Both the position numbers and the translations under genes were made by a program. A DNA stretch of 64,000 bases from Streptococcus constellatus subsp. constellatus (GTDB lineage: Bacteria; Bacillota; Bacilli; Lactobacillales; Streptococcaceae), in assembly GCF_023167545.1 (NCBI RefSeq), contig NZ_AP014647.1:744001-808000 (forward strand), read 5' to 3'. Under the pieces are notes generated by a model, which saw only the letters and a program-made list of their open reading frames with translations, did not search any database and was not told where the DNA came from. Positions 5,810 to 49,630 of the stretch are shown in pieces. Within the stretch, counting starts at the first letter, position 1, and the number at the start of each line of letters is the position of its first letter.

Positions 5810-6178
5810 ATGGCATTGAACATTGAAAATATTATTGCTGAAATTAAAGAAGCTTCAATCCTTGAATTGAACGATCTTGTAAAAGCTATCGAAGAAGAAT
5901 TTGGTGTAACTGCAGCTGCTCCTGTAGCTGTAGCTGCTGCTGGCGCTGGTGAAGCTGCTGCTGCAAAAGATTCATTTGACGTGGAATTGACTGCAGCAGG
6001 CGACAAGAAAGTTGGCGTTATCAAAGCTGTTCGTGAAATCACAGGTCTTGGTCTTAAAGAAGCTAAAGAACTTGTTGATGGAGCACCAACTGTTGTTAAA
6101 GAAGGTGTTGCAACTGCAGAAGCTGAAGAAATCAAAACGAAATTGGAAGAAGCTGGAGCTTCAGTTACTCTTAAATAA
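5810..6178 (+). CDS. rplL: 50S ribosomal protein L7/L12
   Basis: A stalk protein that recruits translation GTPases. The frame is open from 5759, but MALNIENI at 5810 follows TTTGGAGG and gives the usual 122 aa. Visible are the N-terminal dimer domain, an alanine-rich hinge near residues 38-55, and the globular domain with [20 protein letters not shown]. Its last five codons are identical to the 15-bp attachment core reported for ICESa2603-family elements, and element debris follows. Confidence 0.97.
6164..6178 (+). other. rplL 3' attachment core for ICESa2603-type elements
   Basis: GTTACTCTTAAATAA is the exact complement of TTATTTAAGAGTAAC, which I recall as the att core used by ICESa2603-family integrative elements at rplL. 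I found no second full copy; the nearest is a 10-base match (TTTAAGAGTA) near 8055, which is in the opposite orientation. Confidence 0.65.
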
Positions 6179-6277
6179 GAAGCACATAGCAATTTGAGAG
6201 CGGAATCCCGATTTACCAGTCTTTTAGAGCTCATAGCGATTTGAAGAAACTGATAAATTGATTCGGTTTCCTGCCAA

Positions 6278-6317
6278 AAATCCTGCCAAAAAAATCTTTG
6301 GCAAGATTTTTGTTTTT
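6278..6317 (+). terminator. rplJL operon terminator
   Basis: AAATC-TGCCAAA pairs with TTTGGCA-GATTT, with a single bulge, and is followed by a T-rich tail. Confidence 0.75.
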
Positions 6318-45060: not shown

Positions 45061-45881
45061 ATGATTTCTTTGTTGAAAGAGTATTTTAAAGCTAATCATA
45101 TCAACGCTTTTAATTTGTATCTTAATCCTATGATGTTGCAGCAATACAATCAATACTGGATGCACATTGGTGACGATATTAAGACATCAAATTCACCAGC
45201 TATTATGGGTGATGGTATTCTCTTAGGTCAAAGCGTTGGTACAGACCTAGTCGGTTTGGACTTCTATCAAATAATGCTGGTATCTGACCCGATTACAGGC
45301 GCCTCCGGCTAACTTCATCATGGTCAATACTTAAGGAAAACGTTTTGTAGATGAGTACGGTAGTCGGGATAAATGAGTTCAGGCAGCAATTGACAATGGT
45401 GGTTTTTTCTATCTGATTGTAGACGATAATATGAAAGAAACAGCTTATAATACAGTCAAGAAAAGATTGATGCACAGGTAGCACATGGAATGATTTACCG
45501 ATCAGATAGTTTGGAAGAGTTGGCTTAACAGCTACAAATGGATCCACAGGTCTTTACCAAGACGATCACAGCTTATAATATTTATGTTGATGCAGGATAT
45601 GGTCCTGAATTTGAAAAAAGAGCTTTCGACCTCAAGGTTGAAAAGTCACCATTTTATGCCACTCCTTGAAAACCAGTCGTTCACCATACTATGAGCGGTC
45701 TTAAGATTGATACGAAAACGTATGTTATCAATAAGCGAGGACAAGTTATCCGAAGTTTCTACGCAGCTTGAAAGTAGCTGGCGAATTGCATGTTGGAAAC
45801 CGTTTGGGTGGTAATTTCCTTACTGATATTTTTACTTTTGGACGTATTGCAGCCGAAATTGCTATTACAAAGAATTGTTAA
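45061..45881 (+). pseudogene. Flavoprotein fumarate reductase-like gene, decayed
   Basis: Three frames together give the back half of an FAD-dependent fumarate reductase/3-oxosteroid-type flavoprotein: [20 protein letters not shown], then [57 protein letters not shown], and the closing [19 protein letters not shown]. In-frame stops and frameshifts interrupt it at several places (e.g. near 45310, 45376, 45527, 45668, 45769), and the N-terminal FAD domain is missing. Clearly dead. Confidence 0.85.
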
Positions 45882-45938
45882 TCTTGATTTTAAGGCAGAA
45901 AATTCATTCAGTTTTGGGAGGATTTTTTGTAAATATTC

Positions 45939-45967
45939 TTGACAAGCATTTCTTTTAATGTTAAAGT
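45939..45967 (+). promoter_or_regulatory. Promoter of leader peptide / ABC exporter operon
   Basis: TTGACA (45939-45944), 17 nt, TAAAGT (45962-45967); predicted start near 45974. Confidence 0.75.
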
Positions 45968-46001
45968 ATTAACTAATTAAAAGTAGAAAGGAGAATGTAT
46001 C

Positions 46002-46073
46002 ATGAATAATGTAAAACAAAACAGTACTCAGGTATATCATACGACAGAACTCCTTTCTAGCACAGCACTGTAA
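46002..46073 (+). CDS. 23-residue leader peptide of the ABC exporter operon
   Basis: The ORF runs from ATG 46002, 8 nt after GAAAGGAG, to TAA 46073. The peptide starts MNNVKQNSTQVYHTTE and ends LLSSTAL; it has no signal peptide or double-glycine motif, so a secreted pheromone is unlikely. Good ribosome site, own promoter, terminator 35 bp after the stop, then a multidrug-type ABC pair: the layout of ribosome-mediated attenuation, as for bmrB-bmrCD in B. subtilis. Confidence 0.65.
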   Translation: MNNVKQNSTQVYHTTELLSSTAL

Positions 46074-46107
46074 TTTATTTTTGATGAAAAAATAAATAAA
46101 AACAAGT

Positions 46108-46145
46108 AAGCTCAGGACAGGTTTATTCTGTCTTGAGCTTTTTTG
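46108..46145 (+). terminator. Attenuator terminator before ABC exporter genes
   Basis: AAGCTCAGGACAG (46108-46120) pairs with CTGTCTTGAGCTT (46128-46140), one G-T pair, loop GTTTATT, then T5. Confidence 0.85.
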
Positions 46146-46166
46146 TGTGTTTAGGAAAGGTTTAGG

Positions 46167-47897
46167 ATGATTAAAAGTTTATTTGGATATATAAAAGAAC
46201 ATAAATGGTTATATTTGTCCATTGCTCTGGTTTTACTATTGTATGATTTTACAATGTTGATTCCAACACAGGTAATTCAGCGTTTAGTAGATCATCTTTC
46301 GCATCATAGTTTGACACAGCAGAATTTAATTAGAGATGTTAGTTTGTTGGCTCTGGTGACGATTTGTAACTATCTTTCAGCTTACTATTGGCATTTAAAG
46401 ATATTTCAATCGTCCATTGATTATAAATTTCTCATTCAAAGAAGAGCTTTTGAAAAATTGGTAGCTATGAGAATGCCTTTCTACGAAAAATTTCGTTCTG
46501 GTGATATTCTAACGCGTTTTTCAACAGATGTTGAAGGAATGATGGAGATGGCTGGTTATGGAATTGTAATTCTCTTATATGCTGGAGGTATGATTGTCTT
46601 TGTCATTCCGACCATGTTTTTTATCTCATGGGGAATTAGCTTACTGGCTATGATTCCGCTTATGACATTGATGATCTGGATTTATTTTCTTGGTAAAAAA
46701 CAAGATAAACTAGTCGAAAATAATCGTGAAGCAGTGGCATCTTTGAATGATGAGGTGCTGGAAACAATAGAGGGAGTCCGAGTTGCGCGTGCTTATAGCA
46801 AGAAGACAACTCAGAAAGAACAGTTCCAATTGCGCACAAAAGCTTTATCTAAGGTTGGTGATCAAATTGCCAGCATTCAATATCTTTACGCGCCTCTCTC
46901 CTCTGTCTTTATCGCTTTATCAACAATTATTGTGCTTCTTATTGGGGCTATTTTTATAAAAATGGGACAATTAACAATTGGGCAAGTGATCGCTCTTCAA
47001 TTGTATATGATTAGCCTTATTGAACCTTTTTGGATGTTGTCGGACTTTATCTTGGTCTATCAAACAGGGAAAACGTCTTTTAAAAAGGTCACAGAATTGA
47101 TTGAAACGACAGATGATATGAAAATGAGTGGCAAAGAGGAGTTAAAACATCTTATCTCTATTCGTTTTCAGAATTATCATTTCACTTATCCACAAACAAA
47201 AAGACCTAGCTTGCGTAACATAGCTTGGCAAATTGAAGCAGGAAAGACGTATGGTATTGTTGGAAAAACAGGATCTGGTAAAACAACCTTAGTTCGTCAG
47301 CTTTTTCAGCAATATCCTGTTGGACGAGGTACATTTCAGATAAATGGAAAATCCGTCAGTCACTATTCACGTCCATCGATTGAAGCAATGATTGGCTATG
47401 TCCCTCAGGAGCATATTTTGTTCTCAAAATCTGTCAAAGACAATATTGCCTTTGGTAAGAGAAATGCGACATTAAGCGATATTGAGAAAGCTATTAAAAC
47501 AGCAGCATTTTCAGAAGATTTAAAACGAATGCCAGACGGACTGGAAACTCTTATTGGTGAGAGAGGAGTGTCAATATCTGGCGGTCAAAAACAAAGAATT
47601 TCTTTAGCACGCGCCTTTATTAGACAACCAGAAGTCCTCATTTTGGATGATTCTTTGTCAGCAGTTGACGCTCAAACAGAGCGTCGAATTATCAAAAATC
47701 TTCAGGATATGCGAGCTAATCAGACAACGATCATTGTGACACACCGTTTGTCAGCTATCCAGCAGGCAGACTGGGTTCTTGTCTTAGAAGATGGACAAAT
47801 TGTTGAAGAAGGGACACCGAACCAGTTGCTAAATAAAGGAGGCTGGTATGCCGAACAATATCAGCGGCAGCAACATCAGAGAGGAGGGAGCAAATGA
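46167..47897 (+). CDS. ABC exporter half-transporter with degenerate catalytic site
   Basis: A 576-aa type IV exporter subunit: six membrane spans (about 1-310) and an ATPase domain. Walker A is GKTGSGKTT, the signature SISGGQKQR is intact, but Walker B reads LILDDSLSAVD, with Asp where the catalytic Glu is expected. This degeneracy marks one half of heterodimeric drug exporters such as BmrC/BmrD, PatA/PatB and LmrC/LmrD. Start has AGGAAAGGTTTAGG. It overlaps its partner by 4 bp (ATGA). Likely exports drugs or lipids-like compounds; the exact paralogue is uncertain. Confidence 0.9.
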   Translation: MIKSLFGYIKEHKWLYLSIALVLLLYDFTMLIPTQVIQRLVDHLSHHSLTQQNLIRDVSLLALVTICNYLSAYYWHLKIFQSSIDYKFLIQRRAFEKLVAMRMPFYEKFRSGDILTRFSTDVEGMMEMAGYGIVILLYAGGMIVFVIPTMFFISWGISLLAMIPLMTLMIWIYFLGKKQDKLVENNREAVASLNDEVLETIEGVRVARAYSKKTTQKEQFQLRTKALSKVGDQIASIQYLYAPLSSVFIALSTIIVLLIGAIFIKMGQLTIGQVIALQLYMISLIEPFWMLSDFILVYQTGKTSFKKVTELIETTDDMKMSGKEELKHLISIRFQNYHFTYPQTKRPSLRNIAWQIEAGKTYGIVGKTGSGKTTLVRQLFQQYPVGRGTFQINGKSVSHYSRPSIEAMIGYVPQEHILFSKSVKDNIAFGKRNATLSDIEKAIKTAAFSEDLKRMPDGLETLIGERGVSISGGQKQRISLARAFIRQPEVLILDDSLSAVDAQTERRIIKNLQDMRANQTTIIVTHRLSAIQQADWVLVLEDGQIVEEGTPNQLLNKGGWYAEQYQRQQHQRGGSK

Positions 47898-49630
47898 GTA
47901 TCATTAGTCGTTTATTAAAAGAACTAAGAGTTGTTCGAACTGCATTCTTTTTTGCGGTTGGAATTGCTGTTTTAGCAACGGTGACTAGCCAACTGTCTCC
48001 TCTCTGTTTGAGAAATATGATAGACGGACCGCTTACACAGATTGGAAGCGGAAAAGATCGTCAGGTTCAGCTTTTGCAATTAGCTGGATTATACATAATT
48101 GTTGTAGTTTTGGGGAGCATACTGACTTACTTAGGTGATCGCCTTTTAGCGCATTGTGGAAACAAAGTAGCAGAACATCTGAGGAATGAAGCTTATCAGG
48201 TTATGCAAAATTTGCCGATTTCTTACTTTGATGATAAACCAGCAGGTAAGATTGCAACCAGAATTGTAAATGATACGGAAACCTTACGAAGACAATTTTA
48301 TGCTAGTTTGGTTAGTGTTTTGATTCAAGTTCTTCGGATTGTTTTTACCTACGCTCTATTGTTTTACCTTAGTCCGCTTGCTGCCTCGATACTTTTGCTA
48401 TTGCTTCCTGCTTTTTATGGGATACAAGTATTTTATAAAAAACTAACAGACAAGCCGATGAAAGACTTTTATGATTCACGGAGTGATATCAATAATCAAG
48501 TGAATGAATTGATGCATGGAGCCAGCTTGATACAGTTATATCATCAGGAAAAAACAGTTCTTTCAGAATTTAATGCAACTGCTCGAAAAATGAGCCAAGC
48601 TGATAAACAAATTGTATGGGTAAGTGCTCTTTCGTCTTGGCCATTAACGGAATTTTTAAAAAATACAGTGCTTACTGTCATTTTGACGATAGTTGGTCAG
48701 CAATTTTTAGGCGGTCGCAATGTCATTACCGCTGGTGTACTGTTTATCTATCTCAATTATATTATCAATTTATTTGAGATGATGGGTTTTCTGGTTCGGC
48801 TTTTCCCAAATGTACAACGATCATTGGAAACAGGGAAACGAGTTTTAGAATTGTTAGATCAACCTCAGGAAGAGGATGTAAAATCACAGTTGGCAGTTGT
48901 TAAAGGACAAGTTACATTTGAACATGTGAGCTTTGCATATGAGAAAGGCAAGACAGTTCTGCACAATATTAGTTTTAAAGCAAAGAAAGGAGAGACGGTT
49001 GCTTTGGTAGGACATACCGGCTCTGGAAAATCTTCTATCATGAACCTACTTTATCGTTTCTACGATCCTCAAAAAGGGAAAATCTATGTTGATCAACAAG
49101 ATATTCAACAATATTCTCGTGAAAGTCTTCGTAGTCACATGGGGATTGTTTTGCAAGATCCTTATCTATTCACAGGAACACTAGCAACTAATGTAGCTAT
49201 GAGCCATTCAGGTATCAATCGTGAAAAAGTTTTGGAATCTTTAGAAAAAGTCGGTGCAGGGGACTTGCTGGCTCGTTGTAAAGAAGGAATTGATGAGCCT
49301 GTAAAGGATAAAGGGGCAGCATTTTCGAGTGGTGAACGTCAACTGATTTCATTTGCTCGAGCTCTCTATGCTAATCCTCAAATTTTAATATTGGATGAAG
49401 CAACTTCTCATATTGATACAGAAACCGAAGAACTGATTCAAAAAGCAATGGCTGTTGTAAAGGAAGGGAGAACAACTTTTATCATTGCTCATCGTTTATC
49501 AACCATTCAAGAGGCAGATCAAATCCTGGTTATTTCTGAAGGAAAGATTGTAGAGCGAGGGCAACACGACACATTGGTAAAACAAAATGGGATCTATGCT
49601 CAAATGAGCCGTCTCCAGCAACAAGTATAA
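47894..49630 (+). CDS. ABC exporter half-transporter, catalytic partner
   Basis: A 578-aa partner subunit with six spans and an ATPase domain: Walker A GHTGSGKSS, Walker B ILILDEATSHID with the catalytic Glu. Its signature is SSGERQ rather than SGGQ. The altered signature here and the altered Walker B in the partner both fall in the same degenerate composite site, as in known heterodimers. GGAGGGAG precedes the ATG. Both genes are under the leader-peptide attenuator. Confidence 0.9.
   Translation: MSIISRLLKELRVVRTAFFFAVGIAVLATVTSQLSPLCLRNMIDGPLTQIGSGKDRQVQLLQLAGLYIIVVVLGSILTYLGDRLLAHCGNKVAEHLRNEAYQVMQNLPISYFDDKPAGKIATRIVNDTETLRRQFYASLVSVLIQVLRIVFTYALLFYLSPLAASILLLLLPAFYGIQVFYKKLTDKPMKDFYDSRSDINNQVNELMHGASLIQLYHQEKTVLSEFNATARKMSQADKQIVWVSALSSWPLTEFLKNTVLTVILTIVGQQFLGGRNVITAGVLFIYLNYIINLFEMMGFLVRLFPNVQRSLETGKRVLELLDQPQEEDVKSQLAVVKGQVTFEHVSFAYEKGKTVLHNISFKAKKGETVALVGHTGSGKSSIMNLLYRFYDPQKGKIYVDQQDIQQYSRESLRSHMGIVLQDPYLFTGTLATNVAMSHSGINREKVLESLEKVGAGDLLARCKEGIDEPVKDKGAAFSSGERQLISFARALYANPQILILDEATSHIDTETEELIQKAMAVVKEGRTTFIIAHRLSTIQEADQILVISEGKIVERGQHDTLVKQNGIYAQMSRLQQQV

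Follow-up and report, generated by a model that had tools for sequence, protein, structure and literature searches.

The 64,000-nucleotide (nt) stretch of Streptococcus constellatus subsp. constellatus DNA analysed here (contig NZ_AP014647.1, positions 744,001 to 808,000; hereafter the window, in whose numbering and on whose forward strand all features are given) carries a short leader, at 45939 to 46166, in front of two genes for a heterodimeric ATP-binding cassette (ABC) exporter. This leader is probably a ribosome-mediated transcription attenuator that reads the occupancy by ribosomes of the start region of its own open reading frame (ORF). Four RNA segments are involved, and the segments, their conservation, the fit of the second to the third and the folding logic are established here by sequence and computation. 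Segment 2 lies towards the 3' end of the ORF and copies the anti-Shine-Dalgarno (anti-SD) tail of 16S ribosomal RNA (rRNA); it could pair either with segment 1, the SD of the ORF itself, or with segment 3, a part of the 5' arm and loop of a terminator that resembles an SD. The 3' arm of this terminator is segment 4. With no ribosome on the leader, the 1:2 helix would form, the terminator (3:4) would follow and the exporter would stay off. During free translation 2:3 could not form, because a ribosome at the stop codon, about 21 nt past the start of segment 2, would cover that segment, and the genes would again be off. A ribosome held on the first codons would instead cover the SD and leave segment 2 free to pair with segment 3 before segment 4 is made, so that termination would fail and the exporter would be transcribed. 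What could hold a ribosome there? Tetracycline stalls Escherichia coli ribosomes at start codons (PMC12121999), and the leader is plausibly an initiation-stall sensor with tetracycline as its input.

A promoter, a 23-codon ORF led by an SD, a terminator and two exporter genes had been read here in an initial annotation, and all of them are confirmed by the sequence. The promoter (45939-45967) comprises TTGACA at 45939-45944, a spacer of 17 nt, TAAAGT at 45962-45967 and the TG of an extended -10 element; in best-promoter scoring it reaches 11, against a mean of 8.6 for shuffled sequence (p 0.01). From its spacing the RNA is expected to start near 45974, which places the SD (TAGAAAGGAG, 45984-45993; segment 1 and, by sequence and fold, the 5' strand of the SD-hiding helix) about 10 bases downstream. 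The ORF runs from the ATG at 46002 to the TAA ending at 46073 (23 codons plus stop) and encodes the peptide MNNVKQNSTQVYHTTELLSSTAL. Within it, CTCCTTTCTA at 46050-46059 is the perfect 10-bp complement of 45984-45993 that had been noted before. A complement of this length has a p of 0.002 under codon-order shuffling of the ORF, and in 22 other SD-led genes of the window, taken as controls, the runs do not exceed 6. Segment 2 as a whole spans 46050-46061, of which 46050-46059 pairs with the SD and 46052-46061 with segment 3. The latter (46110-46121), where the 5' terminator arm resembles an SD (GCTCAGGACAGG), makes 10 pairs with segment 2 with two bulged C, at -8.5 kcal/mol. An A+T-rich hairpin at 46073-46097, found by folding and recognizable by eye in the anginosus-group leaders (L001, L009, L010 and L089-L091; such handles are our own), would be the tip of this antiterminator.

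The intrinsic terminator (46108-46144) begins 34 nt past the stop codon of the leader ORF. Its existence was correctly noted before; its stem (46108-46121/46127-46140) has 14 bp in the fold rather than the 13 bp then given, with segment 4 as the 3' arm (46127-46140) and six T at 46139-46144. The ribosome-binding site of the first exporter gene, read from the sequence, follows at 46154-46160. The window thus has the arrangement of a leader-peptide attenuator, a short SD-led ORF lying between promoter and terminator and upstream of the exporter genes. The predicted fold of the 174-nt leader has an energy of -49.9 kcal/mol, where 200 shuffles average -26.6 (standard deviation 4.0; z -5.9). A scan of it against Rfam gave no family at threshold, and with laxer settings one sub-threshold microRNA model overlapped the terminator (24 bits, with 66 needed). 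The pattern GAAAGGAG-N55..85-CTCCTTTC has a single site in the 1.9-Mb genome, which is the window leader, and this search yielded no further leader of the same kind there.

Is this layout shared by relatives? Homologues of the exporter, called at E up to 1e-150, are present in 73 of 197 Streptococcus genomes, and the upstream DNA was examined for 70 of these loci (leaving out G006, at a contig end, G015 and G021). All but one of the 70 have an SD-led leader ORF ahead of the exporter. Of these 69 ORFs, 66 were found automatically, two by hand (L120, L138) and one lies 938 nt upstream (G014/L094); the locus that lacks one is L157 (S. moroccensis). The set used for comparison holds 80 leaders in 36 clusters, including five named loci and seven of another family and excluding the distant L094; three contigs are present twice (L010/L090, L012/L157 and L013/L251), which does not affect cluster counts. 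A perfect complement of the SD of at least 8 consecutive bases lies within the ORF in 31 of the 36 clusters, and in 26 of 31 when five clusters found by pattern are left out; the codon-shuffle p is up to 0.05 in 30 of 36. The CTCC of the anti-SD strand starts exactly 21 nt ahead of the stop codon in 23 of 35 clusters, in ORFs of 19-34 codons. The pattern itself, with a spacing of N48..78, occurs in 48 of the 197 genomes and a control pattern in none of the 197. By coordinates, 43 of the 48 have a match at the leader of the exporter; in the other five all matches lie elsewhere, and a further two genomes have additional ones. Matches L166, L182 and L186 were rejected as leaders, being ordinary coding genes, as were four in G151 that carry the end of 16S rRNA. 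Some leaders have further peculiarities. The clade of L119 and L121-L135 has two tandem terminator-like hairpins between leader and exporter, and in the mitis-like leaders L092-L106 the terminator lies 42-127 nt past the leader stop, mostly more than 120, in some with a further stretch before the gene.

The terminators of these loci carry SD-like stretches in their 5' arms and loops (TAGAAAGGA, TAGGAAGGA, TGGAGTG, ATGGAGGAG), and these face segment 2: TCCTTTCTaACCG with CGGTAGGAAGGA, GCTTCTCCaATCT with AGATGGAGGAGT, CACTCC with GGAGTG, CCTTTATCAT with ATGATAGAGG and AACAAACT with AGTTTGTT. Letters and registers vary among clades and match within each clade. Over 35 cluster representatives, native partners form the 2:3 helix with a mean energy of -13.4 kcal/mol. 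The mean is -10.7 when strand 2 is given the terminator of another cluster and -6.4 when it is given 38 unrelated terminators from the window, and in 20000 permutations of the partners the native fit was never equalled. L013, which lacks CTCC, was skipped here as well as in the peptide/covariation and codon-scan tests, L136 was anchored on a wrong CTCC in the energy test, and terminators were set by hand for the first one of the L119 clade, for L120 and L138 and for the leaders of family f4. In the 16 leaders of the L119 clade, strand 2 has two mismatches to the SD yet fits its own terminator. As a family, the leaders have mutually exclusive anti-antiterminator, antiterminator and terminator helices, the 2:3 helix of the window not being significant when taken alone.

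The effect of a ribosome on these alternatives was modelled by folding the RNA to the end of segment 3 with or without a masked ribosome footprint. Unmasked, the clusters form on average 8.0 pairs of 1:2 and 4.6 of 2:3. A footprint over the start codon raises 2:3 to a mean of 11.0 pairs and brings 35 of 36 clusters to 5 pairs or more, and a footprint at the stop codon reduces the mean to 0.8, with 2 of 36 at that level; shuffling segment 3 lowers the start-codon mean from 11.0 to 5.7. When the footprint was moved along the window leader codon by codon, codons 1 and 2 were the sole positions at which 2:3 formed, and further on either the SD pairing re-formed or the ribosome covered segment 2. 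In this model, the response reads as that of an initiation sensor, strictest in the window. The earlier suggestion that a ribosome stalled on the leader blocks the SD pairing and alters the terminator is thus borne out in outline by folding, but it was incomplete in lacking the 2:3 antiterminator, and a stall anywhere on the leader would not do, the first two codons alone freeing segment 2 in the window.

The arrangement reaches beyond Streptococcus. A looser pattern was unspecific, with matches in 161 of 295 genomes of the order Lactobacillales and control matches in many; among 30 loci so found, eight leader-like ones were inspected and seven are leaders of this exporter in another bacterial family, f4, which includes Ruoffia, a genus of Aerococcaceae (L013 and L251 share a leader peptide). 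The eighth, L191, was rejected as a coding gene. The Ruoffia-type leaders L013, L024 and L248 have no CTCC; by eye, GATGTCA or AATGTCA directly after the SD core has a counterpart in the ORF, TGACATC or TGACAT, as though the complement were displaced. A gene-based search found exporter homologues in 104 of the 295 genomes (27 Streptococcus and 77 others), of which 60 had their upstream regions examined (59 of the 77 and one Streptococcus). An SD-led short ORF lies ahead of the homologue in 55 of these 60, and in 36 of the 55 at least one of two measures gives its SD complement a p of no more than 0.05, a count from which relatedness is not removed (f4 13/15, f8 7/10, f6 11/19, f3 3/8, f2 1/2, Streptococcus 1/1). 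Terminators could be located for 41 of these leaders, and in those 41 the native 2:3 energy is -9.7 against -8.4 for swapped partners, with 13 of 20000 permutations as good (10 of 20000 for the 27 non-redundant leaders). The leaders of f4 and f8 account for this signal, L254 being an example at -20.2.

The exporter itself bears on the input. Both half-exporters, encoded at 46167-47897 and 47894-49630, have Tet(46) as their best-matching NCBIfam family (subunit A with 822.5 bits, subunit B with 828.5), at about two thirds of the 1250-bit cut-off and thus below the threshold for membership. The Tet(46) model is also the best for subunit A in seven proteins of leader-bearing loci, including that of S. 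intermedius SK54, which shares 99% identity with the window in the first exporter protein. The best match in the PDB for the 46167-47897 product is YheI (BmrC) of Bacillus subtilis (8t1p, 438 bits). Since both subunits match Tet(46) best, PatAB, which the initial annotation had offered as a counterpart, is not the best name for this exporter, and identity with PatAB did not emerge. The window genome holds a second exporter pair (L002, L007), its first gene SmdA-like, and no leader of the same kind was seen by eye in the 440 bases upstream of it. Among curated models, the closest thus belongs with the exporters TetAB(46), TetAB(60) and TrexAB (PMC5138185, PMC12256430). TrexA is reported to be 55% identical to TetA(46), and a trexAB knockout lowers the tetracycline minimum inhibitory concentration 16- to 32-fold (PMC12256430). 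The target half (23 nt) of a primer published for trexAB is present, among the compared loci, only in L138 and L163. Both belong to G175, so that G175 probably is the trexAB locus. The leader there (MNNSTKRMNFLENTLLSSRKS) combines an SD complement of 9 nt with a TAGGAAGGA terminator and a 2:3 helix at -15.9.

For a tetracycline input count the nearness of the exporter to the tetracycline exporter Tet(46) and the presence of the design at the probable trexAB locus. We infer that tetracycline-type drugs are the natural input and that the switch operates in cells. The chances are about even for the joint proposal that an attenuator class spread over streptococci and two or more other Lactobacillales families measures start-codon occupancy by letting the real SD and an SD decoy in the terminator compete for one anti-SD copy, with tetracycline-type arrest of the first elongation step as input and tetracycline-type exporters, including trexAB, as output.

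Several observations weigh against an attenuator that reads the start region. In the clade of the window the 2:3 helix is weak; that of the window itself has p 0.26 against unrelated terminators and 0.36 against shuffles, and 5 of 20 shuffles equal it in the masked fold. The folding model permits 1:2 to close around the ribosome and leaves kinetics aside, and in the absence of a ribosome 12 of 36 clusters already have 5 or more 2:3 pairs and would be left partly on by equilibrium folding. Over 35 clusters the codon-by-codon response is graded rather than limited to the start: mean 2:3 pairs are 11.2 at codons 1-2, then 9.8, 7.7 and 6.6 at codons 3-5, about 5-6 at codons 6-10 and near zero over the last eight codons. 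A promoter scores at p about 0.05 or better in only 19 of 36 clusters, and S. moroccensis (L012, L157) has the exporter and no leader in the 600 bases upstream. Covariation between SD and anti-SD within clusters, which had been put forward as a check on the two 10-mers, is slight, because the SD core hardly varies; a single flanking position covaries, at p 0.012, and a test of all flanking positions jointly gives p 0.11. Finally, in the f3 and f6 relatives (exporter identity 36-44%) native 2:3 partners do no better than swapped ones; these loci (for example L268, L285 and L286) have SD-led ORFs, many with an SD complement, and may operate differently.

The graded response is what would be expected of a more general attenuator of the bmrB or trp kind, in which a ribosome slowed at any of many leader positions would cause readthrough, the SD pairing serving mostly to keep leader translation infrequent. 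Cluster-wide, 2:3 is indeed still partly possible with a ribosome at codons 3-9; moreover, bmrB responds to chloramphenicol, erythromycin and lincomycin (PMC4191407), and in tlrB a hairpin is described that hides the SD and represses further leader translation (PMC6851288). Such an attenuator is nevertheless unlikely here: the window works only at codons 1 and 2, and SD occupancy must matter because the antiterminator strand is the complement of the SD itself.

Less likely still, though deserving mention, is that a plain terminator sets a low basal level and the leader is a by-product, with induction by supercoiling or DNA damage as reported for pneumococcal patAB. Terminator mutations raise patAB expression there, and the cited sources report as inducers fluoroquinolones and DNA damage (PMC4319486, PMC9774293) and not the ribosome-targeting drugs of the earlier claim; a paper on erythromycin names patAB merely as being present. 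A by-product would not be expected to retain its ORF, the complement to the SD, the distance to the stop and the 2-to-3 fit across clusters, as this leader does. The patA locus has the order hexA-patA; one mitis-like exporter seems to stand at a distinct locus, because an FtsX-like gene (named by eye) and not hexA precedes it, and the window exporter follows a decayed frame and a tRNA-Thr gene (the comparison included no named S. pneumoniae locus).

Could the peptide rather than the RNA be what is conserved? The second codon is for Asn in 26 of 36 clusters, 24 of 36 have LLS, and the peptides are otherwise unalike. LLS is what CTCCTTTCT spells in one frame; the anti-SD strand is read in the second frame in L011 (strain DD13), L155, L156 and four f4 clusters and in the third in L148, and LLS is replaced (by FSFL, TPL or SSPF, for example) where the same RNA strand sits in another frame. 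With peptides otherwise unalike and the anti-SD strand in all three frames, it is the RNA that appears to be under constraint, and the peptide seems to follow from the conserved strand. A nascent-chain arrest peptide or an amino-acid sensor with the SD pairing as a secondary feature, for which the two recurring motifs and the control of mef(E) by such a peptide (PMC4335068) could be cited, is very improbable and was rejected on this comparison: a run of a single amino acid was seen in none of the leader peptides, and no conserved arrest motif of the ErmCL or Mef(E)L type is seen in the 36 peptides, where only N2 and the frame-dependent LLS recur.

How does an SD-reading attenuator relate to known leaders? 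In trpL, hiding of the SD limits leader translation. That ribosomes control attenuation ahead of resistance genes is well established (bmrB, vmlR, tlrB, mef(E), toiL), and there is precedent for the sensing of stalled initiation (vmlR, toiL) and for the limiting of leader translation by SD hiding (tlrB). The vmlR leader of B. subtilis has a short upstream ORF and anti-antiterminator, antiterminator and terminator, and responds to initiation-stalling drugs; its SD, however, is single-stranded before the first stem-loop, and a three-codon ORF sits in the bulge of that stem-loop (PMC9226507). In the window leader the SD is itself the anti-antiterminator strand of the 1:2 helix and pairs with a strand close to the end of a 23-codon ORF, and the leader is not of the vmlR type. 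The bmrB-bmrCD leader of B. subtilis also has an ORF before a heterodimeric ABC exporter, three alternative stem-loops and a requirement for translation, but its terminator, antiterminator and anti-antiterminator fall within nt 60-162 of the leader gene, inside its coding region (PMC4191407); the window ORF stops at 46073, the terminator starts at 46108 and the SD is used, which sets this leader apart from bmrB.

Upstream of topAI in E. coli, the toiL ORF senses tetracycline and retapamulin through start-codon-stalled ribosomes, but the described output is control of topAI translation and Rho-dependent termination, with no intrinsic terminator bearing an SD decoy in the cited description (PMC12121999). 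The tlrB (yxjB) leader of B. subtilis shares a leader peptide, a terminator and a hairpin that also represses leader translation; it differs in that no overlapping antiterminator is identified in the cited text and in that its stall, at an RYR motif, depends on tylosin (PMC6851288). The patA terminator of S. pneumoniae likewise precedes a heterodimeric ABC exporter, with an attenuator predicted by RibEx, but the predicted RNA start is 67 bp before patA, hexA lies upstream, the locus is fluoroquinolone-inducible and no leader peptide is mentioned in the cited portions (PMC4319486, PMC9774293). An attenuator had also been predicted before a multidrug exporter of two lactobacilli by Naville and Gautheret (PMC2965389). 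In the open-licence literature of PubMed Central, no attenuator was found in which the leader SD is the anti-antiterminator strand and the terminator carries an SD decoy, nor was any description of a leader before TetAB(46) or TrexAB; the terms leader peptide (or leader) and terminator are absent from the main text of the two papers on these exporters (PMC5138185, PMC12256430).

The surroundings of the leader can be summarized briefly. A tRNA-Thr gene is followed by a decayed reading frame, the leader and the two exporter genes. The broken frames (45061-45890, between tRNA-Thr and leader promoter) look by eye like a flavoprotein of the fumarate reductase/flavocytochrome c type, the one piece that was scanned gave no Pfam match, and the same frame looks, also by eye, less broken in S. 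anginosus (L010). Elsewhere in the window, at 6164-6314, the Listeria small RNA family rli38 matches above threshold (70.7 bits), in a Streptococcus.

Exporters of the TetAB(46)/TrexAB type provide low-level tetracycline and tigecycline resistance from the streptococcal chromosome, and how they are switched on is not explained in the cited parts of the papers describing them (PMC5138185, PMC12256430). If the reading proposed here is true, a sensor of start-codon arrest would explain induction by the exported drug itself, with the leader SD and a terminator-borne SD decoy competing for one strand, and would predict the inducers: drugs that stall ribosomes at start codons would act, and those that stall them late would do so little. 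An SD mirrored near the end of a short ORF, together with an SD-like terminator arm, also provides a signature by which leaders with non-aligning peptides can be found.
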